In this document: positions 9,303 to 35,307 of the stretch, piece after piece
Numbering within the stretch: the first letter of the stretch is position 1
Layout of the letters: each line of letters opens with the position of its first letter
Origin: Gammaproteobacteria bacterium
GTDB lineage: Bacteria; Pseudomonadota; Gammaproteobacteria; Steroidobacterales; Steroidobacteraceae
Length of the DNA: 64,000 nucleotides
Direction of reading: 5' to 3'
Assembly: GCA_027452045.1 (NCBI GenBank)
Contig: DAIDHH010000141.1
Coordinates: forward strand, 1 to 64,000
Notes under the pieces: model-generated
Database searches by the model: none
The model's input: the letters and a program-made list of their open reading frames with translations, nothing else
What the model was told of the DNA's origin: nothing
Translations under genes and position numbers: made by a program

Positions 9303-9331
9303 AGGAGCCGGTCACTCGCTTGCGCAACACC

Positions 9332-10552: not shown

Positions 10553-10623
10553 CCCCTGCGCCCGGGCCTGGTCGCAGTACAACCCGAGAATTCAGTCTGG
10601 ATGACTCGCATGAACAGGCGCGC

Positions 10624-11402: not shown

Positions 11403-11460
11403 TTGACAGCGCTCATGCCCGCGAGCAGTATTACGAATAGTTAATTCCGTAATACTGCTC
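11403..11460 (+). promoter_or_regulatory. Promoter and operator of the guanidine operon
   Basis: A perfect -35 TTGACA stands at 11403-11408; a weak -10 (CAGTAT, 11426-11431) follows at 17-bp spacing. Overlapping it is a perfect inverted repeat: arms GAGCAGTATTACG (11423-11435) and CGTAATACTGCTC (11448-11460) separated by 12 bp. Long-spaced half-sites are what NikR-type ribbon-helix-helix tetramers bind, and the NikR-like gene begins 20 bp downstream. Autorepression by blocking the -10 is the simple reading. No T-run follows, so this is not a terminator. Confidence 0.7.
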
Positions 11461-11480
11461 CTGCCGCCCCGGGAGGCACT

Positions 11481-12796: not shown

Positions 12797-12826
12797 CCGG
12801 CCGTTGGAGTTTCCGGAGACCGCCCA

Positions 12827-13468: not shown

Positions 13469-13470
13469 AC

Positions 13471-16400
13471 GTGTTCGAGAAAATCCTGATCGCGAACCGC
13501 GGGGTCATCGCCTGCCGCATCATCCGCACGTTGCGCCGCATGGGCATTGCCTCGGTCGCGGTATTCTCGGATGCCGATGAGGGAGGGCGGCACGTCGAGC
13601 AGGCGGATGAGGCGGTGCGGGTTGGTCCGGCGGCGGCCGCCGAAAGCTACTTAAATGCCGCGGCGATTATCGAGGCCGCTCGCCGCAGTGGCGCTCAAGC
13701 CGTTCATCCAGGCTACGGGTTTCTCAGCGAGTCGCCAACTTTCGCCGCGCGCTGTGAAGATGCGGGCCTCGCCTTCATCGGTCCGACGCCGCAACAGATC
13801 CAGGCATTCGGACTGAAGCATGCCGCTCGAGCGCTCGCGCGCCAGACCAAGGTCCCGCTCATTGAAGGCACTGAGGTGCTTGCGGATGTGGAGGCGGCAC
13901 TCGAGCAGGCGTCCCGAGTCGGATATCCGGTGATGCTCAAGGCGACCGCTGGCGGTGGCGGCATTGGCATGCGAGTCTGCGACGATGCGCAGGCCCTTCG
14001 CGATCAGTTCCAGGCGGTCACGCGCCTGGCGAGCAGCCATTTCGGCGATGGTGGACTCTTTCTGGAGCGTTACGTCCGCCATGCGCGCCATATCGAGGTG
14101 CAGATCTTCGGCGACGGCCACGGTCGCATAGCCGCGCTCGGGGAGCGGGACTGCTCGCTGCAGCGGCGCAACCAGAAAGTGATAGAGGAGACGCCCGCGC
14201 CGGGGTTGGACGATGCTGCGCGGGAGCGCCTGCGGGACGATGCGGTGCGATTGATGAAGGCCGTGAGCTATCGCTCGGCGGGCACGGTGGAGTTTCTTTA
14301 CGACAGCGAACGCCGCGAGAGCTACTTTCTCGAGGTGAATACGCGTCTTCAGGTCGAGCACGGCGTGACCGAGCAGGTTTCCGGAATCGATCTGGTCGAG
14401 TGGATGATCCGCTGCGCCAACGGCGAGCGGGCCTTCCTCGAACCGTGGCTCGAATCGTCGGCCTGGGCGAGCCGCGCTCGCGGCGTGTCGATTCAGGCAC
14501 GACTGTACGCGGAGGATCCGGCGCGGGACTACAGGCCCTCGGCTGGCACGCTCTCCAAGGTCGAATTTCCAGCCGGAATCCGCGTGGAATCCGCCGTGAC
14601 CGACGGCAGCAGTATCACCTCTCACTACGATCCGCTGCTCGCCAAGATCATCGTGACGGCGCCGACACGCGCCGCCGCGGTGCAACAGCTCCAACAGGCT
14701 CTCGATCAGACCAAACTCAGCGGAATCGAAACCAACGTCGAATGGCTGCGCGCGGTCGCACGCAGCGAGTCCGTCCTACGGGGCGAACTCTCGACGCGGG
14801 TGCTGCAGACGGTACGGCATGAACCGCGCACGATCCGCGTGGTGAGCGGCGGTCTGTGCACCACCGTACAGGACTATCCCGGCCGTTTGGGCTACTGGAG
14901 CGTGGGCGTGCCGCCTTCCGGACCGATGGACGATCTTGCCTTCCGGCTCGGCAATCGCCTGCTTGGCAATCCCTCCTCGGCTGCCGGGCTGGAGTGGACG
15001 GCCACCGGTCCTACCCTCGAGTTCGATTGCGCGGTGACCCTGTGCCTCACGGGGGCCGACAGCGCAGCGAGCCTCGATGGCCAGCCTCTCGATCGGTACC
15101 GACCCATCGAAGTCGCGCCTGGTCAGCAGTTGAAGCTTGGTCGGCTGCGTGGTCCCGGGATGCGAGGTTACGTACTCGTACACGGCGGGATCGAGACGGC
15201 CGAATATCTCGGCAGCCGCTCAACGTTCACCCTTGGGGGTTTCGGCGGACACGCGGGACGCGCGCTGGCAGCGGGCGACGTGCTGCATCTCGGTCCCCAT
15301 CCGGGCTTCGTGCCCGAAGCCACCCTGCCCGCGGCGCTCATTCCGCAGCTCAGCCGCGAATGGCGGGTGCGCGTACTGTACGGTCCGCACGGGGCCCCGG
15401 ACTATTTCACGGATGAGGATATTCACTGCATACTCAACGCCGCGTGGCGCGTGCACTATAACTCGAGCCGTACCGGCATCCGGCTGCTCGGGCCACGGCC
15501 GACTTGGGCCCGGCGTGATGGCGGGGAGGCAGGGCTTCATCCCTCGAACATTCACGACAACCCGTACGCAATCGGCGCCATCGACTTCACCGGTGACATG
15601 CCGATCATCCTCGGACCCGACGGTCCCTCGCTCGGGGGGTTCGTCTGTCCGTTCGTCACCGTCCGTGCCGATCTTTGGAAGCTCGGACAACTGGCCCCCG
15701 GGGACATCGTGCGCTTCGAGAGCATCGATGAGCCGGCGGCCGCCACCGCCGCGCGCAAGCGCGAGAAGATGCTCACGACGCTGCGTCCGGTGCGGCCCCC
15801 GGCCCACGCTACGCGTGCGCCACGCACTGCCGTGCTGGCTGAGTTGGCCGCGAGCCCTACACGGCCACGCGCACTCTACCGGCGTCAGGGCGACAGCCAT
15901 GTGCTCATCGAGTACGGCGCGCCGGTTCTCGATCTGACCCTGCGCATCCGTGTCCATGCACTGATGCTCGAGTTCGAGCGGCAACGGCTCCCCGGCGTCA
16001 TTGATGTCACGCCCGGTATCCGCTCGCTTCAAATCCATTACGACAGCTCCCGCTTGAGCCGGGCTCGGCTGCTTGATTGCCTCATGCGCACCGAGGAGCG
16101 TCTCGGTTCTCTCGATGCGTTCGAAACCCCATCCCGGGTGGTGCATCTGCCGCTGTCATTTCGCGATCCGGCCGTCGAGGAAACAGTGAGCCGGTACATG
16201 AACTCGGTGCGCGCCGACGCCCCCTGGTGTCCGGACAATATCGAGTTCATTCGCCGCGTCAATGGTCTCGGCAGCCCGGAGGACGTGCGACGCATCGTAT
16301 TCGATGCGAGCTATCTTGTCGTGGGGCTCGGGGATGTGTATCTCGGAGCTCCGGTGGCGGTGCCACTTGATCCCCGCCACCGCCTCGTCACGACCAAGTA

Positions 16401-17103
16401 CAACCCGGCGCGTACCTGGACACCGCCGAACGTCGTCGGGATAGGCGGCGCATATCTGTGCATCTACGGCCTGGAAGGCCCGGGAGGCTACCAACTCTTC
16501 GGCCGCACCATCCAGGTCTGGAACAGTTACCCGCGTGCCGGAGTTTTCGGCGATGAGCCCTGGCTGCTCAGATTCTTCGATCAGATCCGCTTCTTTCCGG
16601 TTACGCCCGAGGAGCTGCGCGCGTGGCGGGCGGAATTTCCCCTTGGGCGACGCACCTTAAGGATCGAGCCCGAGACTTTCCGACTGGCCGATTACCGCCG
16701 CTTCCTTGCCGAGAACCGCGCCGATATCGACGCGTTCCAGAGTCGCAGGCAGCATGCCTTCGACGCAGAACGCGACGCGTGGCAGCGCGATGCAGCAAGC
16801 GCGCCAACTCAGTGCGACAGCACCGATTTGGTGCAACAGCCGATCAACGTCCCTCCGGGGGTAGAGCTGGTGGAAGCGCCGCTCGGCGGCAGCATCTGCA
16901 GGGTTCTGGTCGAGTCTGGAGATCGGATCGAGCGTGGCATGCCCATTGCATTAATAGAGGCGATGAAAAGCGAATGCAGCGTCCCCAGCCCCATCAGCGG
17001 CCACGTGCGCGCCGTGTACGTTCGTCTGAATCAGCCGATCACCCCCGGTGCCCCGCTGGTGGCGATCGAGCCGGTGGCAAATGTGTCCCCCACGGGAGAC
17101 TGA
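13471..17103 (+). CDS. Biotin-dependent guanidine carboxylase (annotated in databases as urea carboxylase)
   Basis: A 1210-residue enzyme, full length for the family. It has an N-terminal biotin carboxylase domain (FEKILIANRGVIACRIIRT; ATP loop KATAGGGGIGMR; LEVNTRLQVEH), a carboxyltransferase region of two AHS-type domains (about 460-1090) and a C-terminal biotinyl domain with LIEAMKSE as the biotin-lysine site. In the carboxyltransferase pocket the sequence reads GAIDFTGDMP. From memory, fungal urea carboxylase has Asn at this Asp, and Asp marks the guanidine-preferring enzymes. It uses ATP and bicarbonate to make carboxyguanidine. The GTG at 13471 follows the previous stop by 2 bp; the longer ORF in the track is a read-through. 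Confidence 0.93.
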   Translation: MFEKILIANRGVIACRIIRTLRRMGIASVAVFSDADEGGRHVEQADEAVRVGPAAAAESYLNAAAIIEAARRSGAQAVHPGYGFLSESPTFAARCEDAGLAFIGPTPQQIQAFGLKHAARALARQTKVPLIEGTEVLADVEAALEQASRVGYPVMLKATAGGGGIGMRVCDDAQALRDQFQAVTRLASSHFGDGGLFLERYVRHARHIEVQIFGDGHGRIAALGERDCSLQRRNQKVIEETPAPGLDDAARERLRDDAVRLMKAVSYRSAGTVEFLYDSERRESYFLEVNTRLQVEHGVTEQVSGIDLVEWMIRCANGERAFLEPWLESSAWASRARGVSIQARLYAEDPARDYRPSAGTLSKVEFPAGIRVESAVTDGSSITSHYDPLLAKIIVTAPTRAAAVQQLQQALDQTKLSGIETNVEWLRAVARSESVLRGELSTRVLQTVRHEPRTIRVVSGGLCTTVQDYPGRLGYWSVGVPPSGPMDDLAFRLGNRLLGNPSSAAGLEWTATGPTLEFDCAVTLCLTGADSAASLDGQPLDRYRPIEVAPGQQLKLGRLRGPGMRGYVLVHGGIETAEYLGSRSTFTLGGFGGHAGRALAAGDVLHLGPHPGFVPEATLPAALIPQLSREWRVRVLYGPHGAPDYFTDEDIHCILNAAWRVHYNSSRTGIRLLGPRPTWARRDGGEAGLHPSNIHDNPYAIGAIDFTGDMPIILGPDGPSLGGFVCPFVTVRADLWKLGQLAPGDIVRFESIDEPAAATAARKREKMLTTLRPVRPPAHATRAPRTAVLAELAASPTRPRALYRRQGDSHVLIEYGAPVLDLTLRIRVHALMLEFERQRLPGVIDVTPGIRSLQIHYDSSRLSRARLLDCLMRTEERLGSLDAFETPSRVVHLPLSFRDPAVEETVSRYMNSVRADAPWCPDNIEFIRRVNGLGSPEDVRRIVFDASYLVVGLGDVYLGAPVAVPLDPRHRLVTTKYNPARTWTPPNVVGIGGAYLCIYGLEGPGGYQLFGRTIQVWNSYPRAGVFGDEPWLLRFFDQIRFFPVTPEELRAWRAEFPLGRRTLRIEPETFRLADYRRFLAENRADIDAFQSRRQHAFDAERDAWQRDAASAPTQCDSTDLVQQPINVPPGVELVEAPLGGSICRVLVESGDRIERGMPIALIEAMKSECSVPSPISGHVRAVYVRLNQPITPGAPLVAIEPVANVSPTGD

Positions 17104-17107
17104 GCGA

Positions 17108-18886
17108 ATGCGCACCGATTCGCTGATCGACATTGCCAAGGCGGTCGCGGGGCGCGAAGCGAGCGCCGAGAAAATTGCGCTGCAGGCGCTGCGCAAGGTC
17201 GAAGAGTACGACGCGGTGCAACCGCAGGCGTGGATTGCGCGCTGTGGCGCCATCGAGGTCCTGGCGCAGGCGCGCGAGGTTGACGCCAGGATCGCCGCCG
17301 GAGAAAGCCTGGCGCTGCCGGGCGTGCCCTTTGCAGTGAAGGACAATATCGATGTCGCCGGCATGCCGACCTCAGCGGCGTGCCCGACCTTCTCGTACCG
17401 TGCCGAGCAGTCCGCGGTGGTGGTCGAGCGACTGCGCGCCGCGGGCGCGATCCTCCTCGGCAAGACCAATCTCGACCAATTCGCCACCGGCCTCACGGGT
17501 ACCCGCAGTCCCTATGGGATCCCGGGCTGCGTCTACAATCGCGAATACGTTGCGGGCGGCTCGAGTTCCGGCTCGGCGGTACTCGTGGGCGCAGGCGTGG
17601 TGCCGCTCGCCCTCGGATCTGACACTGCTGGCTCCGGCCGGGTGCCGGCCGCATTCAATCACCTGGTGGGCCTGAAGCCGACCCGCGGCCGCTGGAGCAC
17701 CCGCGGCTTGGTGCCGGCCTGTCGCAGCCTCGATTGCGTGTCCGCTTTCACGCGCACAGCCGCCGAGGCCATTGCGGTCGATCGAGTACTCACGGCATAC
17801 GATGCCGAGGATCCGTATTCGCGCCGGGTCGCCTCGAATGCTTCGCTCGGCGCCGCCTTCCGCCTGGGTGTTCCTCTCGAAGCGCAGCTTTCCTTTTCCG
17901 ACGCAGAGACGCGCGGGCTGTTCGCGGCGGCGCTGGAGCGAGTGCAGAGCCTCGGCGGCATGGTGCACCGCATCGACATCCAGCCGCTGCTCGAGTGCGG
18001 ACAGCTTCTCTACGAGGGACCATGGCTCGCCGAGCGCGCGCTCGCGATCGAATCCATGCTCGCCTCGAGATCGAGCGCTCTGCACCCTGTGGTACGGGCC
18101 ATCGTGCAGGCCGGCTGCGGGATCGGCGCCACCGAGGCGTTCCGCGGGCTGCACTCGCTGAAGAGCCATGCCCGCGCCGCGCAAGCGATCTGGGAGCGTG
18201 TCGATGTGCTGCTTGTGCCGACCACCACGCAAATCCATCGCATCGCCGAAGTGCTCGCCGATCCATTCACGCTTAACAGCCAGCTCGGTCGTTACACCAA
18301 CTTCGTCAACCTTCTTGACTTCAGTGCGCTCGCCGTGCCTGCGGGCTTTCGTACCAATCGCACGCCCTTCGGCGTCACTTTGATGGGTCCTGCCTGGGCG
18401 GACGATGCGCTGCTCGAGCTCGCCATGCGCCTTGAGCACACCCGGCCACTCGAGCCCGCGCCGCCGCTCGATCGGCATGCGCATCCATCCGGCACCCTGC
18501 TCGCCGTGGTCGGGGCGCACCTCTCGGGCATGCCGCTTCATTGGCAGTTGAGCGCCCGCGGCGCACGCTTCATCGAGCGTACCCGAACCGCTGCGACCTA
18601 TCGGCTCTACGCGCTGTCTGAGAGCGCCCCCCCGAAGCCCGCTCTGGTGCACACGAGTCAAGGCGGCAATGCTATCGAGGTCGAGCTCTACGAGCTCGAT
18701 CCGCCCGCCCTTGGCGACTTTCTCTGCGAAGTTCCGCCGCCGCTCGCCATCGGCACGGTGCACCTGCACGATGGGCGAATGGTGCGAGGCTTCGTGGCCG
18801 AGCCGCGAGCCCTGGAAGGTGCACTGGACATCACCGCCAGCGGGGGATGGCGCGCCTATATGGCGGGTCGCGGGAGTTTCTCATGA
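17108..18886 (+). CDS. atzF: Allophanate hydrolase
   Basis: A 592-residue amidase-signature enzyme. The Ser-cisSer-Lys triad is visible: Lys in FAVKDNIDVAG, cis-Ser in GGSSSGSAVLV and nucleophile Ser in LGSDTAGSGRVPA. After about residue 440 comes the C-terminal domain typical of AtzF-type allophanate hydrolases (AVVGAHLSGMPLHWQL..GTVHLHDGRMVRGFVAE). It converts allophanate to two ammonia and two carbon dioxide, the last step of guanidine (or urea) breakdown. The ATG at 17108 lies 4 bp after the carboxylase stop, so the genes are translationally coupled. Confidence 0.94.
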   Translation: MRTDSLIDIAKAVAGREASAEKIALQALRKVEEYDAVQPQAWIARCGAIEVLAQAREVDARIAAGESLALPGVPFAVKDNIDVAGMPTSAACPTFSYRAEQSAVVVERLRAAGAILLGKTNLDQFATGLTGTRSPYGIPGCVYNREYVAGGSSSGSAVLVGAGVVPLALGSDTAGSGRVPAAFNHLVGLKPTRGRWSTRGLVPACRSLDCVSAFTRTAAEAIAVDRVLTAYDAEDPYSRRVASNASLGAAFRLGVPLEAQLSFSDAETRGLFAAALERVQSLGGMVHRIDIQPLLECGQLLYEGPWLAERALAIESMLASRSSALHPVVRAIVQAGCGIGATEAFRGLHSLKSHARAAQAIWERVDVLLVPTTTQIHRIAEVLADPFTLNSQLGRYTNFVNLLDFSALAVPAGFRTNRTPFGVTLMGPAWADDALLELAMRLEHTRPLEPAPPLDRHAHPSGTLLAVVGAHLSGMPLHWQLSARGARFIERTRTAATYRLYALSESAPPKPALVHTSQGGNAIEVELYELDPPALGDFLCEVPPPLAIGTVHLHDGRMVRGFVAEPRALEGALDITASGGWRAYMAGRGSFS

Positions 18887-18905
18887 CGCCAGATCGTAGA
18901 TCCGC

Positions 18906-19937
18906 ATGACTAGAGGTTGCATCACCGTGAACGAATCGATCACAAGCCGCGTGCGCCCCGGGGCTTTCAACCACGCCCGAAGCGCGCGTCTTCTCGTGCC
19001 GCTTCTGTGCCTGCTCTTGCCCTCCTTGGCGCGCGCCACCATCAAGGTTGGTGTCTCGGACTGGACCGGGTGGGTGGCATGGTACGTGGCCCGCCAGGAA
19101 GGGTACTTTCAGAAGTACGGTGCGCGGGTGCGGCTCATCTGGTTTCCAAACTACAGCGATTCGATTTCGGCGTTGTCCACGGGGCAGCTCGATGCAAACA
19201 GCCAGACCTGGTCCGATACACTGAGCCCGCTGGCGCGCGGATTGCCCCTTCAGGTCGTGCTGGTAAATGACAACTCTTCGGGAAATGACGCGGTCATGGC
19301 GGGTCCCGCCATCCGTTCCATAGCCGCCTTGAAGGGGCGGACCGTAGCGCTCGAAGAATACAGCGTGTCGCACTTCGTGCTGTATACGGCGCTCGCACGC
19401 GCTGGGATGACTCCTTCGGAGGTTCATCTCGTCAACCTTGATGCGGGCGACGCCGCCGCTGCGTTCATGACCGGACGGGTGGACGCGGCGGTGGTATGGA
19501 ACCCGTGGATCAGTCGCATCGAGGCGAGCGGCACCGGGCACGCGCTGTTTACCTCCAGACAGATGCCCGGCCTCATTCCGGACCTGCTCGTCGCCCAGCG
19601 CGCCTCGATCGCTGCGCACCGCGCCGACTTCGTTGGCATGATCCGTGCCTGGTTCGCCACTGTGGCCTTCATTCACACCCACCCCAACCAGGCAGTGCGC
19701 ATCATGGCGAAGGTGGTGAGCATGAGTCCCGCTCAGTACAAGGTGTTCCTGCCGGGCACTCGCCTGTTCGGCGCTCGGGCGAATCTCGCCGCCTTCGACC
19801 CGCACAATCCGACGAGTCTCGTGGCGGTCGAGCCGGCAATCGCCAAGTTTTTGCGCACTTATCGGCTCATCGAAGGATCCCCGGACCTCGCCCACGCCAT
19901 CGACTCCGCACCGCTCGAACAGGCGTTGCACCGATGA
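18906..19937 (+). CDS. ABC importer substrate-binding protein of the guanidine operon
   Basis: About 343 residues, NMT1/SsuA-like periplasmic binding protein. The signal segment (ARLLVPLLCLLLPSLARAT) is followed by the mature start IKVGVSDWTGWVAWYVARQEGYF and the SALSTGQLDA and VDAAVVWNPW blocks. It resembles the binding-protein family found in 'urea carboxylase' regions. The ATG at 18906 and a GTG at 18927 (VNESITSRV) are both possible starts. Its gene overlaps the permease gene by 4 bp. Guanidinium or a related cation is the inferred ligand from context alone. Confidence 0.88.
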   Translation: MTRGCITVNESITSRVRPGAFNHARSARLLVPLLCLLLPSLARATIKVGVSDWTGWVAWYVARQEGYFQKYGARVRLIWFPNYSDSISALSTGQLDANSQTWSDTLSPLARGLPLQVVLVNDNSSGNDAVMAGPAIRSIAALKGRTVALEEYSVSHFVLYTALARAGMTPSEVHLVNLDAGDAAAAFMTGRVDAAVVWNPWISRIEASGTGHALFTSRQMPGLIPDLLVAQRASIAAHRADFVGMIRAWFATVAFIHTHPNQAVRIMAKVVSMSPAQYKVFLPGTRLFGARANLAAFDPHNPTSLVAVEPAIAKFLRTYRLIEGSPDLAHAIDSAPLEQALHR

Positions 19938-20812
19938 GTTCCCCCGAGTCGATCGGTCAGGCCCCCGCCGCCCCCCGCTCGGTCTCGGCGCTCGGGCTTC
20001 CGCCGCCGATGCGCCGCGATCATCAGGGCCTGTGGGTGATCCGCGGCTCGATGAGTTCGCGCCGCTATTGGTGCCTCGCCGCCATCGGCCTTGCCCTGCC
20101 CCTGGTCGGCTGGTTCGCGCTTGCGCGCTTCGGGACGGTGAACCCGGTCTTCTTGCCCGGACCGGCCGCCGTCGCGCGCAGCGCCATCCATTGGCTCACC
20201 CGCGGCAATCTCCTTGACGATACGCGCATCAGCATCTACCGGGTGGTCGCGGGCTGGGCGCTCTCGGCGCTCATTGCCCTGCCGCTCGGACTGTTGATCG
20301 GGACCTATCGAACGATACAGGCACTGCTCGAACCGCTGACGGATTTCATCCGCTACATGCCGGCCGCGGCGTTCATCCCGCTCGTCATGCTGTGGGTCGG
20401 CATCGGAGAGAGCGCGAAGATCGCGATCATCTTCATCGGTACGTTCTTTCAGATGGTGCTCATGATGGCCGAGGACGTGCGTCGTGTGCCGATGGCCCAG
20501 ATCGAGGCCGCCCAGACCATGGGCGCAACGCGCGCCGAGATCCTCGAGAAGGTGATCCTGCCGTCCGCCAAACCCGCGCTTCTTGATACGCTTCGCATCA
20601 CGATGGGCTGGGCCTGGACCTATCTGGTCGTCGCCGAGCTCGTTGCCGCCAATACCGGACTCGGCTACGCCATCCTCAAGGCGCAGCGCTTCCTCGAGAC
20701 CGAGCGAATCTTCTGCGGCATCATCATCATAGGCCTCATCGGCATGGCGATGGACCAGATCTTTCGCCTCGTGCACCGGCTCGCCTTCCCCTGGCTCCAG
20801 ACGAGGACCTGA
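19934..20812 (+). CDS. ABC importer permease of the guanidine operon
   Basis: A 292-residue inner-membrane permease of the SsuC/TauC type. About six membrane helices are visible (YWCLAAIGLALPLVGWFALA, VVAGWALSALIALPLGLLIG, and others). The EAA loop reads IEAAQTMGATRAEILEKVILPSAKPALLDTLR, the contact for the ATPase. ATGA overlap with the binding-protein gene fixes the start at 19934; the ORF-track start at 19496 lies inside that gene. One permease gene implies a homodimer. Confidence 0.92.
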   Translation: MSSPESIGQAPAAPRSVSALGLPPPMRRDHQGLWVIRGSMSSRRYWCLAAIGLALPLVGWFALARFGTVNPVFLPGPAAVARSAIHWLTRGNLLDDTRISIYRVVAGWALSALIALPLGLLIGTYRTIQALLEPLTDFIRYMPAAAFIPLVMLWVGIGESAKIAIIFIGTFFQMVLMMAEDVRRVPMAQIEAAQTMGATRAEILEKVILPSAKPALLDTLRITMGWAWTYLVVAELVAANTGLGYAILKAQRFLETERIFCGIIIIGLIGMAMDQIFRLVHRLAFPWLQTRT

Positions 20813-20813
20813 C

Positions 20814-21644
20814 GTGCAAGCGATCAGCTGTCGCAAAGTCTGCAAGGTATTCGGGCCCGCAGCCAAGCCCATTGTTGCCTTGCAAAACATCAACCTCGAC
20901 ATCGCCGAAGGCGAGTTCGTTACGCTGGTTGGCGCCTCCGGCTGCGGCAAATCCACCCTGCTGAGAGCCCTCGCCGGTCTGGAGAGCCACTCCAGCGGGG
21001 AGATCTATGCCTCCGGTGCGCCGGTGACCGGCCCGGGTATCGATCGGGCCATGGTCTTTCAGCACTACAGCCTGTTCCCGTGGCTCGATGTTCTCGATAA
21101 CATCAAGTTCACCCGCCAGATTGCCGCACACATCCGCGAGCGCACTTCGGCGGAAGTCGAGATGGCGAGCGGTAGGGCCCAGGCGCTCTTGCAAGTGATG
21201 GGCCTGACCGATGCGGCCCACGCCTATCCCAACCAGCTCTCTGGTGGCATGCAGCAGCGCGTCGCCATCGCCCGCGCGCTGATGGGCCGTCCGCGCATTC
21301 TGCTCATGGACGAGCCGTTCGGGGCGCTTGACGCCCAGACCCGCGAAGTCATGCACGATCTGATCCTGCACGTCTCGCAACTCGAGCGCTGCACCGTCGT
21401 GTTCGTCACGCATGACGTCGAAGAGGCGATCTATCTTGGGCACCGCGTAGTGCTGATGGCCCCGCGCCCGGGACGCATCGAGTGTGAATACCCGGTACCG
21501 CTGCCGGAGCTGCGCGCGCAACACATGAAGTACACGCCGGCCTTTCTCGAGCTCAAGTCGCGCATCATCGGACAGATTCGCGCCACCTCGGGCATCAAGA
21601 CCGATAGCGAGCTGCTCGAGAAGCTCGCCCGCCGCAGTGCCTGA
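20814..21644 (+). CDS. ABC importer ATPase of the guanidine operon
   Basis: A 276-residue ATPase of the nitrate/sulfonate/taurine class. Walker A is GASGCGKST, the Q-loop follows [10 protein letters not shown], the signature is LSGGMQQRV and Walker B is [12 protein letters not shown] with the following H-loop [12 protein letters not shown] start, 1 bp after the permease stop. It is the last gene of the operon; the NtrC-like sites of the next transcription unit begin 16 bp after its stop. Confidence 0.94.
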
Positions 21645-21659
21645 CGGCCGCTTCGGGCC

Positions 21660-21707
21660 TGCGCAACAATTGTGCGTCCCGCCCACGCATTGCGCCGCGA
21701 TGGTGCG
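21660..21707 (+). promoter_or_regulatory. Two NtrC-like enhancer sites
   Basis: Two dyads match the 17-bp NtrC pattern TGCACCA-N3-TGGTGCA: TGCGCAACAATTGTGCG (21660-21676) and TGCGCCGCGATGGTGCG (21691-21707). Each keeps most of the TGC...GTGC core. They are 31 bp apart, about three helical turns, the same-face arrangement known for NtrC dimers at glnA. Their centres lie about 172 and 141 bp before the predicted sigma-54 start, a usual enhancer distance. Confidence 0.65.
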
Positions 21708-21812
21708 CCAGGGAGTCGAGGAACTTCGGGCAGCCGCGCTCGGCGACAGCCAACGACACGCTAAATCCCGGATTTCGCACGACGTAACTTGCGGCGCACG
21801 TCGTCGTGATCG

Positions 21813-21829
21813 TTGGCATGTAGTTTGCA
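21813..21829 (+). promoter_or_regulatory. Sigma-54 (RpoN) promoter
   Basis: TTGGCATGTAGTTTGCA matches the -24/-12 consensus YTGGCACGRNNNTTGCW at all but two fixed positions, with GG and GC exactly 12 bp apart. Transcription should begin near 21840, about ten bases before the guanidine-I riboswitch. Together with the upstream NtrC-like sites it indicates nitrogen-limitation control of the TonB receptor operon. Confidence 0.8.
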
Positions 21830-21849
21830 AGTTACTCATTGGATAACGT

Positions 21850-21975
21850 GCTTCTAGGGTTCCGGTCCCCGCAAATGGGATGTCTGGTCCGAGAGAGGCA
21901 GTCCGTTGTGGCAGCGGCAGATCGAACGGCCGCTCTACCCGGATACACGGCGGGATAAAAGCCCGGGAGATCTTC
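21850..21975 (+). promoter_or_regulatory. Guanidine-I (ykkC) riboswitch
   Basis: The conserved blocks of the ykkC guanidine-I aptamer occur in order and at normal spacing: CTAGGGTTCCGG (from 21854), CTGGTCCGAGAG (21884-21895), then ACACGG and GGGATAAAAGCCCGGGAGA ending at 21970. The middle carries a variable stem. It lies in the 5' leader of the TonB-receptor gene, between the sigma-54 promoter and the GTG start. Guanidine-I riboswitches are ON switches that increase expression when guanidinium binds. Outer limits are approximate. Confidence 0.93.
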
Positions 21976-22095
21976 TGTCGAGGAGGCTTGGCATCCTCGG
22001 GATGGTCTTCCGTTTTGCGGCCGCGCCATCCCGAATGCGACCTCGCTCTCCTCGACTGTGCGAACAGTGCATCAGAATTCAGGAGACGACTCGCT
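21976..22095 (+). promoter_or_regulatory. Expression platform: leader hairpins and a candidate start-site sequester
   Basis: After the aptamer come three possible stems. CGAGGA/TCCTCG (about 21979-21998) is first. CGGGATGG (21998-22005) pairs with CCATCCCG (22026-22033). TCTCCT (22047-22052) pairs exactly with AGGAGA (22081-22086), the ribosome binding site of the GTG at 22096, and encloses a small ACTGT/ACAGT hairpin. No T-run follows the stems, so I favour translational control, or Rho-dependent control, over intrinsic termination. The switching partner in the aptamer was not worked out. Confidence 0.5.
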
Positions 22096-24558
22096 GTGAA
22101 TGCAAATGTCCCCCGGCTCTTCAGCGCCACCTGCCGCCCACTCGCCCGCCGCCTCGCCCCGCTCAGCGCCGCGGTGCTCACCGCGCTCTACGGTGCGCAC
22201 ACGCTGGCCGCTGACGCCCCGCCGGATCCGCCCACACGGTTGCGTGAAGTGATGGTCACCGCAACCCGACACCGGATTTCGGCGCAGGACCTGCCGCTCA
22301 GCATCACTGCCGTTACCGGCTCTCAGCTGGTGCAGCAGGGTATCGGCAACATATCCGGCCTCGCCCATTCCCTGGCCGGCGTCAACTTCGCTGACAAGGG
22401 ACCCTTCGGTGGCGTCAACGGCTCGACTCTCATCATCCGCGGCTTGAACAGCGAGGCAACCGCCGGACAGCTGGCCCTCGCCACGCCCATCGTCCCGCCG
22501 GTCTCGATCTATGTGGACAATACGCCGCTGTTCGTAAACCTGCGCCTGCAGGATCTGAAGCGGGTCGAGGTCCTGCGAGGTCCCCAGGGAACCCTCTACG
22601 GGTCCGGGGCGCTCGGCGGCATGATCCGCTTCGTACAGAATCCGCCCGATCCGAAGGCGTTCGATGCCCGCGCGGAAATTGGGGTTAGCGACACCGCGCA
22701 CACGCACGAGCCGAACGAAGAAGCGAGCGCCATTCTCAACATTCCGCTCAGCAAGGACCTCGCCGTGCGGCTCGATACGAGCTGGTCCGAGGACGCCGGG
22801 TTCATCAACCAACCGGATCTGTACAAGCTGGACTCCTCCGGCGCGCCGGTGCTCGCCCAGCCCGGGAACCCGCTCTCGAGCCCACCGGTCACATACGAGC
22901 AGAAGGGAACCAATCTCTATACGTACAAGGCCGCCAGAATCTCGACGCAGTGGCAACCGAGTTCCCGGTTCACCACCCGCCTGTCGTACTATTACCAGCT
23001 CTCGGTCGCGAGCGGCTTCCCGTACTCCTCGGTGCGCCTGGGAGTGGACAACCTCGCGTCCACGGACCATACGCTCGCCTCGGCGAATGACAAGGTCGAT
23101 GTCGCCTCGCTCAGCCTGGAGTACGACTTCGGCTTTGCGACGCTCAGCTCGAATACCTCCTGGTCCCGGCACGATAACCTCTCGAGCGGCGATTTGACCG
23201 CCTTGTACGATGACTTCTCGTTCTATCCCTCGCTCTACGGGGCGAGCCCGCGCGTGCTGGTCACCGGGCACGATGAGCTCTATGACGAGCCCTGGACCGA
23301 GGAGCTGCGCCTGGTTTCGCCCACCGGTGGCACCTTGGAGTGGGTGGCCGGATTCTATTACCAGAACGAAAAGACCGATATCCGCGAGCATGAGTTCTAC
23401 CCCGGATATCTCAACTACTTCAATGCCTGCGCGCCCGTGTACGGAGTGAGCAATGGCGACGGCGTCACACCCTCGCAATGCGGGATCGGGGAAACCGCCT
23501 ACAGCCCGGCCCCCCTCAACTACGTGGATGGCATTCCGATCATCAAGGATCAGGCGTACATCGGTGACTTCGAAACACGCTTCAAGGACATGGCGGTGTT
23601 TGCAGATCTGACGATCAATCTGACCCACAGATGGAGCGTGACCGGTGGCACACGCGTCTTCAGGCAGACGCTCTCTCAGGCACAGCAGACCGGTCTGCTG
23701 TTCGACGGTCCCGGATCCATCGCCAATAACACGCTGCGCGCTGCCTGGCAACGGGCGCTGTGGAAGCTCAATACCGCCTATCATCTGAATCACTCGACGC
23801 TCGCCTACGCCACGTGGTCACAGGGATTCCGTCGCGGCAGCGTCAATGCCCTGCCACCGACGGAGCCGGCCGTGAACTACGTGACCGACCCGCGCCTGTA
23901 TAAGGTTGCGCCTGATACCGCGGACAACTACGAGCTCGGGCTGAAGGGCACCGTCGATGATCTGCTGAGCTACTCGGTCGATGTTTACGACATCCAGTGG
24001 CACAACGTGCAGGAGGGGGCGCAGCTCACGCCCCTGGTGCTCCCCGGGGCGATTAATGTCGGCGATGCATTCAGCCGGGGCCTTGAATCGGAGCTGTATG
24101 TCGGCTTCACCGACAATCTGACCGGTACGCTCGATTACACCTATGACCAGACTCGTCTCACCGCCCTCACCCCCTACGCGATCGCGGGACTGGCCGTGGC
24201 ACCGCCCGCCGTCGGCGCACCGCTCCCTGGAACCCCGAAGAACAGTCTCGCCGTGGGACTCAATTATGGCTTCGGGCTCGGACGGGCGCGGATGCACCTG
24301 ATGCTCGATGCCCACTACCAGAGCTCGCTGGTGCCCGCCCTGTCAGCCACCATTCCGACCGTTGCCGGATATACTCTGGTGAATGCACGTCTCACCTACC
24401 ATCGGGCGCATTGGCTGATCGCCCTGTACTGCGACAATCTGACCAACCGGCTTGGAATCAACTCCTATGAGGATCCATTCAATTATGGGGTCGACTATCA
24501 GGCGCTGGTGACGACGCCGCGAACGATCGGTCTCACCGTGGCGTATTCGCTGCGGTGA
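22096..24558 (+). CDS. TonB-dependent receptor controlled by the guanidine-I riboswitch
   Basis: An 820-residue outer-membrane receptor. The signal segment (LAPLSAAVLTALYGAHTLAADA) is followed by a TonB box (REVMVTATR), the plug domain (LIIRGLNSE; VEVLRGPQGTLYGSGALGGMIRF) and a beta-barrel ending in the aromatic-rich strand TIGLTVAYSLR. There is no N-terminal STN signalling domain. GTG start at 22096 with AGGAGA 9 nt before it; the ORF-track start at 21880 falls inside the riboswitch. Substrate is inferred from control only: free guanidinium should pass porins, so a larger guanidine-containing compound, or a scarce guanidine source, is more likely. It is followed 31 bp later by a sulfotransferase gene. 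Confidence 0.93.
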   Translation: MNANVPRLFSATCRPLARRLAPLSAAVLTALYGAHTLAADAPPDPPTRLREVMVTATRHRISAQDLPLSITAVTGSQLVQQGIGNISGLAHSLAGVNFADKGPFGGVNGSTLIIRGLNSEATAGQLALATPIVPPVSIYVDNTPLFVNLRLQDLKRVEVLRGPQGTLYGSGALGGMIRFVQNPPDPKAFDARAEIGVSDTAHTHEPNEEASAILNIPLSKDLAVRLDTSWSEDAGFINQPDLYKLDSSGAPVLAQPGNPLSSPPVTYEQKGTNLYTYKAARISTQWQPSSRFTTRLSYYYQLSVASGFPYSSVRLGVDNLASTDHTLASANDKVDVASLSLEYDFGFATLSSNTSWSRHDNLSSGDLTALYDDFSFYPSLYGASPRVLVTGHDELYDEPWTEELRLVSPTGGTLEWVAGFYYQNEKTDIREHEFYPGYLNYFNACAPVYGVSNGDGVTPSQCGIGETAYSPAPLNYVDGIPIIKDQAYIGDFETRFKDMAVFADLTINLTHRWSVTGGTRVFRQTLSQAQQTGLLFDGPGSIANNTLRAAWQRALWKLNTAYHLNHSTLAYATWSQGFRRGSVNALPPTEPAVNYVTDPRLYKVAPDTADNYELGLKGTVDDLLSYSVDVYDIQWHNVQEGAQLTPLVLPGAINVGDAFSRGLESELYVGFTDNLTGTLDYTYDQTRLTALTPYAIAGLAVAPPAVGAPLPGTPKNSLAVGLNYGFGLGRARMHLMLDAHYQSSLVPALSATIPTVAGYTLVNARLTYHRAHWLIALYCDNLTNRLGINSYEDPFNYGVDYQALVTTPRTIGLTVAYSLR

Positions 24559-24589
24559 GGGTTCCTGGTGAGATCGGAGGGCGGCGCCG

Positions 24590-26029
24590 ATGAGCCCGCT
24601 CGAGAGCCCGGCCGAGCAGAGACTTCGACAGATTGAGCGGGCGCTTAAGGTGCGGGCGGATCCTTCGCTCCTGCTGCGCCGTGCGCATTGCTTGCTCTCG
24701 CTCGGGCGCGTGGTGGAGGCGAGGACGGCTGCCATGCAAGCCTGGTGTTCGGCGCCCGCGCAAGCCGGTTACTGGGACGCGCTCGGCACCACGCTCAGCC
24801 GTGCCGGTGAGCAGCATCGCTCGATCGAGGCCTACGATGAGGCGCTCAAGCTGCATCCGGATGAGCCAAGAATTCTCTTCAACCGTGCCGCCGTGCGTCG
24901 CTATACGGGAGATCTGGCCGGGGCGGAGGCCGACTACGATCGGGTGATCGCGCTGAATCCTGGCGATTACGAGGCCTATAAGAATCGGTCGGACCTGCGC
25001 CCGCAGACGCCCGCCAGCAACCATGTGCGTGAACTCGAGACATTGCTCTGCGGGGCCCCTTTGCCCTGGATGGCGCAGGTGCACGTGCACTACGCACTTG
25101 CCAAGGAGTACGAGGATCTCGGGCAATACCCGCTATCATTCACTCACCTCACGCGCGCCGCGCAACAGCGTCGCGCGCACCTGCGCTATGAAGTCTGTGC
25201 GGATGAGCAGACCGTGGACTGGATTATCGAGGCTTTCGATGCGCAGGTTCCGCCCCCGCCGCCCGACGCTGCGCACGCGGACTCGCAGCGGCCGGTATTC
25301 ATAGTCGGACTGCCGCGCAGCGGCAGCACCCTGGTCGATCGGATTCTCGATCGTCACCCGGACATCCACTCGGCTGGAGAGCTGCCGAGCTTCGCGCTGA
25401 CCCTCGTCGAGCTCATCGGGCGCACAGAGGGCGGCTCGTCCTTGCCCCGCCGTGCGCTCATTGACCGCTCCGCCACCATGGATTTCGAGGGCCTTGGCCG
25501 CCACTACCTGCGATCCGCCCGGGCGGCCGGCGCCGCACCGGGCCGATTCACCGACAAAATGCCGCTCAACTTCCTGTATTGCGGCCTGATCCGCCGAGCC
25601 TTACCCGGGGCACGCATCGTGCACGTGACCCGTGAGCCGATGGATGCCTGCTACGCGATGTACAAAACGCTGTTCGACGCGGGCTATCCGTTCTCCTACG
25701 AACAGATCGAACTCGGCCGCTATTACGCCGCCTACCATCGCCTGATGCGGCACTGGCAGAGCGTGCTGCCTGGAGCGATTCATGAGGTGCGCTATGAGTC
25801 GCTGGTCACGGCCACGGAGCATGAGATCCGCAAGCTGCTCGCATTCTGTGGGCTCCCCTGGCACCCCGATTGCCTCGCCTTCCACGAAAATCCTGCGCCC
25901 ACTATCACGGCAAGCGCCGCCCAGGTGCGCCGTCCCCTCTATCAGTCCTCGCTCGGCAAATGGAAATGCTACGAAGACCAGCTCGCCCCGATGTTGCGCA
26001 CTCTGCGCGCCGCACACGTGCACGAGTAG
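24590..26029 (+). CDS. TPR-sulfotransferase fusion
   Basis: A 479-residue protein. The N-terminal 170 residues hold TPR repeats (SIEAYDEALKLHPDEPRILFNRAAV; AEADYDRVIALNPGDYEAYKNR). From about residue 230 comes a sulfotransferase domain with the PAPS 5'-phosphosulfate loop VGLPRSGSTLVDRIL, followed by IVHVTREPMDACYAMYKTLF, the 3'-phosphate-binding region. Such TPR-sulfotransferases often sit next to TonB receptors in proteobacteria; the acceptor is unknown. It lies 31 bp after the receptor gene and so should share the sigma-54 and guanidine control. GATCGGAGGGCGG provides the ribosome binding site. Confidence 0.88.
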   Translation: MSPLESPAEQRLRQIERALKVRADPSLLLRRAHCLLSLGRVVEARTAAMQAWCSAPAQAGYWDALGTTLSRAGEQHRSIEAYDEALKLHPDEPRILFNRAAVRRYTGDLAGAEADYDRVIALNPGDYEAYKNRSDLRPQTPASNHVRELETLLCGAPLPWMAQVHVHYALAKEYEDLGQYPLSFTHLTRAAQQRRAHLRYEVCADEQTVDWIIEAFDAQVPPPPPDAAHADSQRPVFIVGLPRSGSTLVDRILDRHPDIHSAGELPSFALTLVELIGRTEGGSSLPRRALIDRSATMDFEGLGRHYLRSARAAGAAPGRFTDKMPLNFLYCGLIRRALPGARIVHVTREPMDACYAMYKTLFDAGYPFSYEQIELGRYYAAYHRLMRHWQSVLPGAIHEVRYESLVTATEHEIRKLLAFCGLPWHPDCLAFHENPAPTITASAAQVRRPLYQSSLGKWKCYEDQLAPMLRTLRAAHVHE

Positions 26030-26219: not shown

Positions 26220-29200
26220 TCATATTGCACGGACCTTGCCGCTCATCCATTGCATCAAGTGACGCATGGCCTGCACGCGAACCGTTTCGACCGGATCGTC
26301 ATGAATCTGCCAGTGCCAGTGCAGTACCTGCGGATCGTGGACTTCATGCGCCTCCAAGAAGTCGGTGATCGGACACGATGCAACCTCGCCCGGAAAGCGC
26401 AGATACAGTGTGTCGTGCAACATCATCCATTGATATGCAAGAGCGCCGACCCAGCTCTGCAATCCAAGTTCATTGGCTCCGCGGAATGCTCGGGCTTTGA
26501 CCCATTCCACCAGAGCCGCGGCCGGCATCGGCCGCGCGAGTCCATAGCCCTGACCCAGGCTGCAGCCGAGCTGACGCGCCGCTTCGACGATCCCCTCATC
26601 CTCCAGGCCCTCCGCCACCACCTCGCGCCCGAGATCCCGGCCGATCTGCACGATGGTGCGGATCAGGCTGAGCGCCTTGAGCGGGTCGCAGGCGAGATCC
26701 TTGACGATGTTCTGGTCGATCTTGATCACATCGAACGGCAGCTCCCCCAGGCGTTTCAAGTTGCTGAACCCGGCTCCCAGGTCATCGAGCGCGATCTTCA
26801 CGCCCGTCGACGCCAGACGGGCGAGGGCCTCATCCACCGTGCCGGCTTCGAGCGCCTGGCTCTCCAGCAGTTCCAGGGTCAGGTGCTTGGGCGCCACCTG
26901 CGCCTCGCGCAGCGCCTCCTCGATCCAGCGCGCGCAGTCCGCATGCCGCAAAGTGCTCGGAGCAAGATTGATCGACAGTTTGACGTCGAGCTTCCCGTCG
27001 CGCCAGCGACGCAGATGGCCGAGCCCTTGCGCCAGGGCCTGCCGGAAAAGCGCATCGAGGTCCGCCTCCCCGAGCGCTGGCAGGAACTGTCCGGGGAGCA
27101 GCAGCGTGCCATCGCGCGAGCGCAGCCGCGCCAGCGCCTCGACTTTCACGAGCGCGCCGTCCGCCAGATTGACGATGGGCTGCACATGCATCTCAACGCC
27201 ACCGCCATAGAGCAGCGCGCGGATCTGCGCAGCCTCGCGTGCATCGACCGCATTTCGTCGGCTCTGGGACCGCGTCGTCATCAAATCCCAGCGGTTCTGC
27301 AGCGACAGGCGCCAGGTGTGCATCCAGCTCGAGGAAAACTGGTTCGGGTAGGAACCGAACAGCATCAAGACGGCATGAACAGCGCCATGGCGGTGTGCGG
27401 GAAGAGTTACTGCGCTGCGAATACCGAACTCCCGCATCAGCTCCTGCCAGGGTTGCGAGCGGCTCTCATGCGCAAAGGCGGCAGTCTCCTGCTGGGAATC
27501 GGTCATCCAGGTCGCTGCAACCATCCCCTGGCCACGAATATCGCGTGGATCTAGCGTCGGATAGCGGTCGCGCACGCGGAAGGCGTCGACGAACTGGTCA
27601 ACGCGCTCTCCGGCTGCCCGCTCGAAGTTGAGCCGATTCTGAGCGTCCGGTCGCCACACCACTGCTGCACGGATACCCGGCAGCGCCGCCAGGGAGTCGA
27701 GCTCCCCCTGCATCCAGTCCGAATCCATGGCTCGCTCGTCCATAGGGCGCGCAAGCAGCCTCTGGTACCGATCGATAATGGACTGCATGGCAAGCAGCTG
27801 GTTCTCGATGTCCAACTGCAGCCGGGCATCGGCCGCTTGCAAAGTGCGGTAGCGCGCGTCTACGGTGAGCAGCGATGCCTCCAGATGGGTACGCAATAAC
27901 TGACGGTACAGGCCCATCGCGCGCGTCATCCATGCTCCCGAGATGCCGATGAGGGCATGGACGATCCCCAACCTGTGCGCGGTCTGCGCCACTGACCGCT
28001 CTGTGGTTTGGGCATCGAGCAGAAAGCGCAGATGGTCTGCCTGTTTGCGCGCGAGATCTTTGAATTCCTCGGCGGAGAGGCACGCAAGGATCGTGGCGCT
28101 CTCCTCGTGAGTCTGCAACTCGCGATAGAATGATGCCGAAAACTCCTCCGCAACAGTCTGAAGATGCGGCGCCAGCCCCCGCATCAGCTCCTGCGCCTCG
28201 GGGCCGAACGCATCGAACGAAGTCCCGGCGATCTGCTCCGGCGTGTCATCGCCGCAGACACGCCACCACTGTCGCCGCTGCCTGCCGGTCTGCCTGGCTT
28301 GATACATCGCCGCATCCGCCTTGCGCAGCAACGACGTCGGCTCGGGTCCTCTCCCGCAAGACAGCGCTACACCCATGGTCATGTCGATCGACACCGTTTC
28401 GCTTCCGGCGAGCGTGAACGGGGTTTCGACCGCGCGGTGCAATCGCTTCAGTGCCGCATCGAGCTGCGGCATCGCCTGCGTCGCATCGAGCTCTTCCAGC
28501 ACCACGACGAACTCGTCGCCGCCCAGGTGGGCAAGGAAATCCGAGTTCCCCAACCAATCGCGCAGACGACGCGATAAGCACCGGAGCAACTCGTCCGCGG
28601 CTTCGCGCCCATACCGCTCATCGATGGGCTTGAAGTCCTCGAGTTCGATCACGCCAACGGCGAGAAGCGAGCCGCTGCGCTGCGCGCGTGCGATGGCCTG
28701 CGGCAGGTACTCCTCGATCGCCACGCGGTTTGGCAGCCCGGTGAGCGCGTCGGTGCGCGCGATGCGCACCTCTTGCTCGTCTGCGGCCCAGTGGCGGTTC
28801 CGGGCATCCAGTTCATCGAGGCCCTCACCCAAAAGGCCCGCGATTCGCGAACACACCTCGATCGCGAGCGCATCGAAGCAGTCGCGCCAGGGCGAGGCGA
28901 CAACCATCATGGCCCACATCCGTCCGGTCCGCATGATCGGCAGGGCGAGCATGCTGAGCCAGCGATGTTCGGCAAAGCTCGCGTGCCATGGCCGCAATGT
29001 CGGATCGGACAAGGTATCGTTGCAGACAACTGGAGATTGCCGGGTCCACGTCTCGAGCAGCTTGCGCGCGGCCTCCTGATCCGTACCCTTCTGCAGTGCC
29101 GTTCGAACCGCACCGGCGCCCTCGCCGGCCAGCGAGAGAATGTCGAATTCGCCCGATGGGCAGCGCTCGAGGATGCATGCCGCGTCGAACACGACATCCT

Positions 29201-29858
29201 GCACCAGATGGGCACAGAGTCTGTCTATCATCTCCTGAGCGGAGCGGCATTGACTCATCACCTCGCCGCACTGCAGCAACGTTCGGTACAAGGCCTGCAG
29301 ATTCATCATCTGTTGCCGTTGCCCGAAGAACTCAAACGTCCGCTTTCCCAGGCGCTCGGTAAACTGGCTCACAGCCTGCGCCACCTCGTGCTTGCCGTCC
29401 TCGGACGGCTCGAGCACGCCAAGGGCGCAAGCGTCGCCCGCCTGCAGATGATGGATGGCGTGGGCCATCCGCCGGTCGACGTCCATGATGTGGTGCAGCA
29501 GCCATTGCGTCAGGAAGGCCAGGAGCTCTACGGTGACCTGCGGTGCATGCTCGCGAGCGAACTCCCGGGCCTGGCGCAGCAATCCGCGGAAGCTCTCATG
29601 GGCTTGCAGATGCATCGTGCGGTGTCCGGAATCGAGCCGCGACTGCCGGATCAGCCGCTCCTCTTCCCGGAAGTGGTAGCGGGTATAGTCCTCCAGCTCA
29701 TCGAGACACGCGAGAACCGTCTCATGCGAGGCATCTTCTGCCGGAATGACTGCGATCCGATTGAAGATCTCCAGCAGGCATTCATGCTGCTCATCGACCG
29801 TGGCGATGCCCGTGGCCATGGCATCGTTCCACCGCAGCGGTCTTGCTGGATCAGACAT
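26220..29858 (-). CDS. Hemerythrin-GGDEF-globin-EAL c-di-GMP signalling protein
   Basis: A 1212-residue protein. Order read by eye: bacteriohemerythrin (about 1-135; DEQHECLLEIFNRI, HFREEERLI, HRTMHLQAHESF, WLLHHIMDVD); GAF-like region (about 190-350); GGDEF domain (about 365-530) with intact GGDEF motif; globin-sensor domain (about 550-690) with the proximal-His block RLGIVHALIGI; a second GAF-like region (about 720-890); and EAL domain (about 900-1130) with VEALARL, LELLES, LDDLGAGFSNL, VIKIDQN and VAEGLED, all consistent with an active phosphodiesterase. About 80 residues at the end are unassigned. It can in principle both make and degrade c-di-GMP and sense oxygen twice. The ATG at 29858 is preferred to the upstream GTG of the ORF track. 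Confidence 0.92.
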   Translation of the reverse strand: MSDPARPLRWNDAMATGIATVDEQHECLLEIFNRIAVIPAEDASHETVLACLDELEDYTRYHFREEERLIRQSRLDSGHRTMHLQAHESFRGLLRQAREFAREHAPQVTVELLAFLTQWLLHHIMDVDRRMAHAIHHLQAGDACALGVLEPSEDGKHEVAQAVSQFTERLGKRTFEFFGQRQQMMNLQALYRTLLQCGEVMSQCRSAQEMIDRLCAHLVQDVVFDAACILERCPSGEFDILSLAGEGAGAVRTALQKGTDQEAARKLLETWTRQSPVVCNDTLSDPTLRPWHASFAEHRWLSMLALPIMRTGRMWAMMVVASPWRDCFDALAIEVCSRIAGLLGEGLDELDARNRHWAADEQEVRIARTDALTGLPNRVAIEEYLPQAIARAQRSGSLLAVGVIELEDFKPIDERYGREAADELLRCLSRRLRDWLGNSDFLAHLGGDEFVVVLEELDATQAMPQLDAALKRLHRAVETPFTLAGSETVSIDMTMGVALSCGRGPEPTSLLRKADAAMYQARQTGRQRRQWWRVCGDDTPEQIAGTSFDAFGPEAQELMRGLAPHLQTVAEEFSASFYRELQTHEESATILACLSAEEFKDLARKQADHLRFLLDAQTTERSVAQTAHRLGIVHALIGISGAWMTRAMGLYRQLLRTHLEASLLTVDARYRTLQAADARLQLDIENQLLAMQSIIDRYQRLLARPMDERAMDSDWMQGELDSLAALPGIRAAVVWRPDAQNRLNFERAAGERVDQFVDAFRVRDRYPTLDPRDIRGQGMVAATWMTDSQQETAAFAHESRSQPWQELMREFGIRSAVTLPAHRHGAVHAVLMLFGSYPNQFSSSWMHTWRLSLQNRWDLMTTRSQSRRNAVDAREAAQIRALLYGGGVEMHVQPIVNLADGALVKVEALARLRSRDGTLLLPGQFLPALGEADLDALFRQALAQGLGHLRRWRDGKLDVKLSINLAPSTLRHADCARWIEEALREAQVAPKHLTLELLESQALEAGTVDEALARLASTGVKIALDDLGAGFSNLKRLGELPFDVIKIDQNIVKDLACDPLKALSLIRTIVQIGRDLGREVVAEGLEDEGIVEAARQLGCSLGQGYGLARPMPAAALVEWVKARAFRGANELGLQSWVGALAYQWMMLHDTLYLRFPGEVASCPITDFLEAHEVHDPQVLHWHWQIHDDPVETVRVQAMRHLMQWMSGKVRAI

Positions 29859-32074: not shown

Positions 32075-32159
32075 GGGAGTTTCGAACATAGTCGAATCGC
32101 GGGCGTTTTCGGTGCGACCGGACGTGCGCGAGCCAATTGCAATCCAACGGGGGGAAACG

Positions 32160-35240: not shown

Positions 35241-35250
35241 CACGACGCAC

Positions 35251-35278: not shown

Positions 35279-35307
35279 TGCGGACTGCAATATGCCTGAT
35301 GTCATCT

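Follow-up and report, generated by a model that had tools for sequence, protein, structure and literature searches.

Guanidine-I (ykkC) riboswitches are known from the leaders of TauABC-type importer genes and of guanidine carboxylase operons, loci that share the sequence and structure of the aptamer, the enzymes and the ABC importer with the locus analyzed here, but in the latter the directly controlled gene is that of an outer-membrane TonB-dependent receptor. In comammox Nitrospira, a Guanidine-I riboswitch precedes the genes of an APC permease and a guanidinase (PMC11410670); there, too, the riboswitch controls import and guanidine is a nitrogen source, but only an inner-membrane permease is involved and no outer-membrane receptor is mentioned. 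In the literature examined, only inner-membrane importers are described for the entry of guanidine into Gram-negative cells, and a 2025 review of guanidine physiology makes no mention of TonB. Metabolite riboswitches in the leaders of outer-membrane receptor genes are likewise known for vitamins. Cobalamin riboswitches precede BtuB-type TonB receptor genes, and a TPP riboswitch is reported ahead of a thiamine receptor gene of Bacteroides (PMC5613172). These systems sense vitamins and are repressing, whereas the riboswitch described here would sense a nitrogen source and is predicted to activate.

The DNA analyzed is a stretch of 64,000 nucleotides (the window) from a soil-type gammaproteobacterium, in which an earlier note had placed a Guanidine-I riboswitch ahead of the gene of a TonB-dependent receptor. 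That note knew of no established TonB-receptor target of this class, which agrees with the open full-text literature (5.39 million papers): within this scope we found no such target for any guanidine riboswitch, and it appears to be undescribed there.

A Guanidine-I riboswitch leads into the gene of a TonB-dependent receptor

When the whole window was searched with cmscan, a match to the Guanidine-I family (RF00442) was obtained at 21843-21971 (+), with a score of 85.9 bits (E = 6.1e-14) against a gathering score of 63 bits, and it spanned the full model (1-107) without truncation. This covariance search was the check that the earlier note had proposed, and it bears out the identity of the element, whose interval had been set a few bases apart (21850-21975). 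The conserved blocks listed there are all exact in the window, where the four of them read CTAGGGTTCCG, GTCTGGTCCGAGAG, TACACGG and GGGATAAAAGCCCGGGAGAT; the covariance alignment has only two non-standard pairs, and the pairs of the core are kept. Guanidine-I was the sole RNA family above threshold in the window, and the assembly, which has a genome completeness of ~75%, contains this single match. A scan of 9200-25000 at a permissive threshold gave no second Guanidine-I aptamer, which ruled out a hidden one ahead of the carboxylase operon described below.

The gene that follows on this strand encodes a TonB-dependent outer-membrane receptor of 820 aa (22096-24558, +), with a GTG start and a Shine-Dalgarno (SD) sequence, AGGAGA, at 22081-22086 (+). 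Both the Plug (PF07715, 1.2e-15) and the TonB_dep_Rec beta-barrel (PF00593, 3.2e-32) domains were detected with Pfam. Read by eye, the N-terminus, MNANVPRLFSATCRPLARRLAPLSAAVLTALYGAHTLAADA, looks like a signal peptide and is followed by a TonB-box-like sequence, LREVMVTA. An AlphaFold2 model (pLDDT 74, pTM 0.78) had an ordinary plug-barrel fold, and the nearest solved folds found with Foldseek were those of the siderophore receptors FyuA, Fiu and FptA, so that the assignment of the gene product made earlier also holds at the level of domains and fold. The window receptor shares the plug and barrel with these three proteins, but it is only 13-17% identical to them, its context is one of nitrogen metabolism, and no iron-uptake genes were seen adjoining it. 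Sequence and structure neighbors were also tried as a guide to the substrate, and they were uninformative, as generic siderophore receptors alone came up. These results confirmed that the element at 21843-21971 is a Guanidine-I riboswitch, predicted from its sequence to bind guanidinium, and that it lies in the leader of the gene of a TonB-dependent receptor.

A TPR-sulfotransferase gene (24590-26029, +; Pfam), located 31 nt 3′ of the receptor gene, is probably co-transcribed with it. Such a gene adjoins homologues of the receptor family in many loci, the riboswitch-less ones included.

A guanidine assimilation operon directly upstream

A guanidine carboxylase operon with an ABC importer, missing from the earlier note, occupies positions 11481-21644 (+) directly upstream of the riboswitch. 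The riboswitch is 3′ of this operon, with a gap of ~200 nt after the stop codon of the ATPase gene. The first gene (11481-11972, +; profile search) encodes a NikR-like ribbon-helix-helix regulator, and it is followed by those of two DUF1989 (PF09347) proteins, UAAP1 of the CgdA type, a carboxyguanidine deiminase subunit (11969-12796, +; TIGR03425 above cut-off), and UAAP2 of the CgdB type (12827-13468, +; TIGR03424 above cut-off). A guanidine carboxylase of the urea carboxylase family (13471-17103, +) and an allophanate hydrolase (17048-18886, +; TIGR02713, 724.4 bits) come next. The importer consists of a substrate-binding protein of the SsuA/TauA type (18906-19937, +), a type that most Guanidine-I riboswitches have downstream, a permease (19940-20812, +; PF00528, with an approximate start inside the ORF 19496-20812) and an ATPase of nitrate/taurine-type families (20814-21644, +; PF00005).

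The carboxylase scored 1729.7 bits against TIGR02712 (cut-off 1303.85). A guanidine carboxylase is recognized by Asp at the positions equivalent to 1330 and 1584 of the Kluyveromyces lactis enzyme (PMC11410670). In an alignment with the K. lactis urea amidolyase, the window protein had Asp at both positions, the first in YAIGAIDFTGD, aligned with YSLGAIN(1330)FTGD of the yeast urea enzyme, in which this residue is Asn, and the second in GLGD; since both signature residues are of the guanidine type, a urea carboxylase could be ruled out. The Asp1330 motif is common to the carboxylases of five relatives.

The regulator encoded by the first gene has the domain architecture of the nickel regulator NikR, with a ribbon-helix-helix and a NikR_C domain, and its scores are below the NCBIfam cut-offs. 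It differs from NikR at the four nickel ligands (His, His, His and Cys): an alignment to 2bj1 has G, H, L and S in their places, and three of the four are gone. Members of this family were also observed near guanidine carboxylase or ABC genes at other loci (L013, 3858-4349; L197, L199 and L201). In the window and L013 proteins the nickel ligands are largely gone and a C-terminal LLPPLHSH is conserved, and these proteins are possibly repurposed sensors.

The presence of this regulator raises the question of whether the cargo of the receptor is a metal that nitrogen metabolism requires, in the form of nickel or a metallophore complex, with the riboswitch merely synchronizing receptor synthesis with guanidine catabolism. 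A NikR-family regulator heads the window operon and occurs in the operon of a second genome (G027, see below), NikR-like genes lie near ABC genes in other relatives, siderophore receptors are the nearest folds, and some guanidinases use nickel (PMC12186494, PMC11410670). However, the NikR-like proteins of both the window and G027 are devoid of three of the four nickel ligands, which makes a metal cargo less likely and weakens nickel uptake as a theme; in addition, the pathway here is of the biotin carboxylase type, not a nickel guanidinase, and among its neighbors we saw neither a nickel enzyme nor a nickel chaperone. Metal import is thus an unlikely explanation.

Recurrence of the riboswitch-receptor pairing in related genomes

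A survey of 217 genomes of the bacterial family of the window gave 30 Guanidine-I matches, one of them below the cut-off, in 26 genomes. A TonB receptor was the first gene downstream in 10 of the 30 matches, that of the window included, and these ten loci belong to ten genomes, four genus-level groups and two receptor subfamilies; their aptamers are intact (83-96 bits). Nine of the linked receptors are of the window's subfamily (52-67% identity over the matched segments), and the tenth (G027), of the other subfamily, is ~31% identical to the window receptor over the N-terminal third. The riboswitch of G027 is located at the start of one uninterrupted run of genes, receptor-NikR-CgdA-CgdB-carboxylase. 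The order found in the window, carboxylase-allophanate hydrolase-ABC-riboswitch-receptor, is present in another genus (G361, L131) as far as the contig reaches. A riboswitch-receptor and a riboswitch-carboxylase cluster are 19 kb apart in G333, and the carboxylase is 14 kb from the riboswitch-receptor pair in G362. None of the 56 Guanidine-I loci from outside the family, taken from partial class- and phylum-wide samples, had a TonB receptor after the riboswitch; nearly all of them start with ABC importer genes, in most cases that of the binding protein, and a few with other genes. At two family loci (L134, 8900-9937, −, in G332; L136, 8533-9411, −, in G334) a gene of the fatty-acid-hydroxylase/sterol-desaturase family comes directly after Guanidine-I, which is a further unusual target, and the gene after it in G334 is that of a TonB receptor belonging to the second subfamily.

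The location of the riboswitch at the end of a carboxylase/ABC operon, whose start is without a Guanidine-I aptamer, could mean that it is a relic of a rearranged guanidine operon that landed there fortuitously and does not affect the receptor in a meaningful way. A sister receptor gene would fit such a view, since in G328 (L133, 10577-11310) the aptamer is intact and the receptor gene is split over three frames, which may reflect either decay or an assembly error. Against this, intact aptamers of 83-96 bits stand before receptors of two subfamilies in ten genomes, and the promoter spacing and the leader complementarity described below are conserved, so that we assign a very low probability to a fortuitous placement.

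A link of the receptor to guanidine catabolism was also apparent at the level of genomes. Among genomes with a receptor of the window's subfamily, which are related to each other and in many cases incomplete, a strong match to guanidine carboxylase was found in 8 of 9 with a riboswitch-bearing receptor and in 3 of 13 with a riboswitch-less one, a set that includes G340, where the receptor starts at a contig edge (Fisher p = 0.0075). The riboswitch label is clustered on the receptor tree and needs two to four changes, which, together with the unrelated receptor of G027, indicates that the regulatory element was captured at least twice. A search for other known RNA classes upstream of the riboswitch-less homologues gave only tRNAs in the vicinity and, at a distance, a single group II intron domain. 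Because several genomes have the subfamily without the riboswitch or the carboxylase, the ancestral cargo need not be guanidine. Several genomic signals support a real regulatory link between the receptor and guanidine nutrition.

Guanidine-II was considered as the switch of the receptor and rejected, its matches being located directly before the carboxylase gene (G005, G258, G314, G362 and G368). In these five genomes Guanidine-I stands before the TonB receptor, i.e., one pathway carries two riboswitch classes.

A predicted sigma-54 promoter element upstream of the aptamer

A sigma-54 type −24/−12 element, TGGCATGTAGTTTGCA, is located at 21814-21829 (+), and it matches the consensus applied (TGGCAYR-N4-TTGCW, with GG-N10-GC) at 16 of 16 positions. 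The predicted start of transcription would be at ~21840, which is the 5′ edge of the aptamer. In the window alone there are 3 matches to the motif with ≤1 mismatch against 1.4 expected, which is not beyond chance in 64 kb; the assignment draws its strength instead from fixed position and recurrence. Each of the ten receptor-linked riboswitches has a near-perfect element 11-16 nt 5′ of its aptamer, and such elements are also present at 18 of 19 other riboswitches of the family. In contrast, the element is absent upstream of 17 of 18 riboswitch-less receptor homologues, and it thus seems that promoter and aptamer travel as one cassette. Many Guanidine-I aptamers outside the family also have a sigma-54 element, often with another spacing. 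A sigma-70 promoter and an intrinsic terminator were looked for as well, and neither a sigma-70-like site in the leader region nor a terminator-like element in the window leader was found.

Sigma-54 elements directly 5′ of aptamers were seen at most family loci (L002-L012, L054-L071) and, among others, at L090, L091, L116, L123 and L125, with other Pseudomonadota included. Their recurrence suggests that control by nitrogen and by guanidine may be general for these riboswitches, which in these bacteria would behave as AND gates that combine guanidine with nitrogen starvation. In the literature searched we found no report that connects guanidine riboswitches with sigma-54.

Folding of the leader and direction of the switch

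From the aptamer end to the receptor gene, the leader contains four segments that could exchange partners. The 3′ strand of the aptamer, A (GGGAGATC, 21965-21972, +), belongs both to the end of the aptamer and to the expression platform, and it is complementary, G-U pairs included, to an element A′ (GGTCTTCC, 22004-22011, +). Just past the aptamer, the putative anti-anti-SD strand B (GTCGAGGAG, 21977-21985, +) is the exact complement of 22048-22056, a perfect pair of 9-mers within the putative anti-SD strand D (CTCTCCTCGAC, 22046-22056, +), which is also complementary to the SD. The sister leaders have a strand D with two alternative partners, the SD and a strand B that comes just past the aptamer, and in most of them an element complementary to A lies ~33 nt downstream. 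When duplexes within leaders were compared with those of swapped leaders in permutations over nine related leaders, the B:D duplex was stronger for strands of one leader than for strands of different leaders (p = 0.008), and the values for A:A′ and D:SD were p = 0.043 and p = 0.051, respectively.

In the full window leader, the mean unpaired probability of the SD rose from 0.03 in the free state to 0.43 when hairpin P3 was imposed and the tail of the aptamer was held, and a similar opening was obtained under this constraint with two other leaders (L005 and L061). With the model in which only the tail is held, SD accessibility was gained in 3 of the 9 leaders, unchanged in 6, that of the window among them, and lost in none (Wilcoxon p = 0.125). 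A translational ON switch is therefore plausible and is our best guess from the modeled folds.

The opposite direction, with guanidine repressing the receptor, either against toxic over-accumulation or as a signal of sufficiency from the guanidine product, would have a parallel in some TonB receptor genes that are repressed by the ligands of their cobalamin or TPP riboswitches. The SD resembles the 3′ strand of the aptamer, and A′ could pair with the SD too. Nevertheless, Guanidine-I riboswitches have been described to permit expression only with guanidine (PMC11410670), and with the aptamer tail held no leader clearly lost SD accessibility in either folding model. An OFF switch is accordingly given little credence.

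A model for receptor control, and the cargo of the receptor

We consider it probable that a cassette of a sigma-54 promoter and a Guanidine-I aptamer has been placed before a TonB receptor that cooperates with the guanidine carboxylase pathway, and the best reading of the locus is that receptor synthesis would depend on both nitrogen shortage and guanidine through this transplanted cassette. When nitrogen is short, sigma-54 RNA polymerase would initiate at the 5′ edge of the aptamer. If guanidine is present, the aptamer would retain its 3′ strand GGGAGATC, so that strand B could pair with the anti-SD strand D, the ribosome-binding site would be freed and the receptor made. The receptor would then carry a guanidine source past the outer membrane, and the inner-membrane step would fall to the ABC importer (in relatives, to an NCS1-type permease). 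Finally, CgdAB, the carboxylase and the allophanate hydrolase would convert guanidine to ammonium. The analysis itself shows the aptamer, the promoter-like element, the order of the genes, the recurrence of the pairing and the co-occurrence with the carboxylase, and we infer the ON direction, the translational mechanism, the use of sigma-54 and the guanidine-source cargo. More generally, we lean slightly towards the view that some Gammaproteobacteria take up guanidine or a guanidine-yielding compound actively through the outer membrane via a dedicated TonB receptor that is turned on under nitrogen limitation (sigma-54) and by guanidine (riboswitch). The earlier note had proposed that guanidine induces active outer-membrane import; its placement of the riboswitch in the receptor leader stands, and the part on induction and import has indirect support only, from the gene neighborhood, the co-occurrence with the carboxylase, a promoter of the nitrogen type and, in some leaders, folds that favor the ON state of a possible anti-SD switch.

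If this is correct, the receptor would represent the first component in the outer membrane that serves guanidine nutrition, as well as the first TonB receptor dedicated to this role, and a well-studied riboswitch would gain a new target class. A guanidine-gated TonB receptor would also imply that there is a natural source of guanidine worth active transport across the outer membrane, and it would offer a concrete genetic handle on this source, by way of the cargo of the receptor.

As to the nature of the cargo, the solutes taken up by TonB receptors are usually large or scarce, and guanidine, with 59 Da, is small enough for porins. For these reasons, and because of the gene neighbors of related receptors, a larger guanidine- or urea-yielding compound seems a likelier cargo than guanidine itself. 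These neighbors encode an NCS1-type permease, a nitrilase-superfamily amidase, an HpaB-type monooxygenase, TPR-sulfotransferases and an M20 deacylase of the acetylornithine-deacetylase type, and several related receptors adjoin an agmatinase-family ureohydrolase whose nearest solved relatives are 3-guanidinopropionase and guanidinobutyrase. High-affinity scavenging of free guanidinium at very low concentration, with nothing larger involved, would have the merit that riboswitch ligand and cargo coincide, and the adjoining ABC importer and carboxylase pathway handle free guanidine. However, ordinary porins let guanidinium through, and the riboswitch-less homologues are found mostly in genomes without the carboxylase, often by a guanidinopropionase/agmatinase-like ureohydrolase, a nitrilase-superfamily amidase and an NCS1 permease, neighbors that suggest a larger guanidino or ureido compound. 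Free guanidinium is hence a possible but rather doubtful cargo.

Further observations

In a group of loci from Parahaliea, Seongchinamella, Woeseiaceae and others (L039-L051), receptor homologues of ~30% identity are riboswitch-less, a nitrilase-superfamily amidase gene is usually located just 5′ of the receptor gene, and a TPR-sulfotransferase gene is often 3′ of it. Amidase, receptor and TPR-sulfotransferase may represent an old functional linkage, which could hint at the cargo.

Elsewhere in the window, a carbohydrate utilization cluster (32001-46383) contains a second TonB receptor, a tryptophan-halogenase-family protein, and genes of the glucoamylase type, of an ABC sugar importer, and of GH125 and GH39. 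A hemerythrin domain protein that also carries GGDEF and EAL domains is encoded at 26220-29888 (−), and from its domains it is likely an oxygen-sensing cyclic-di-GMP enzyme.
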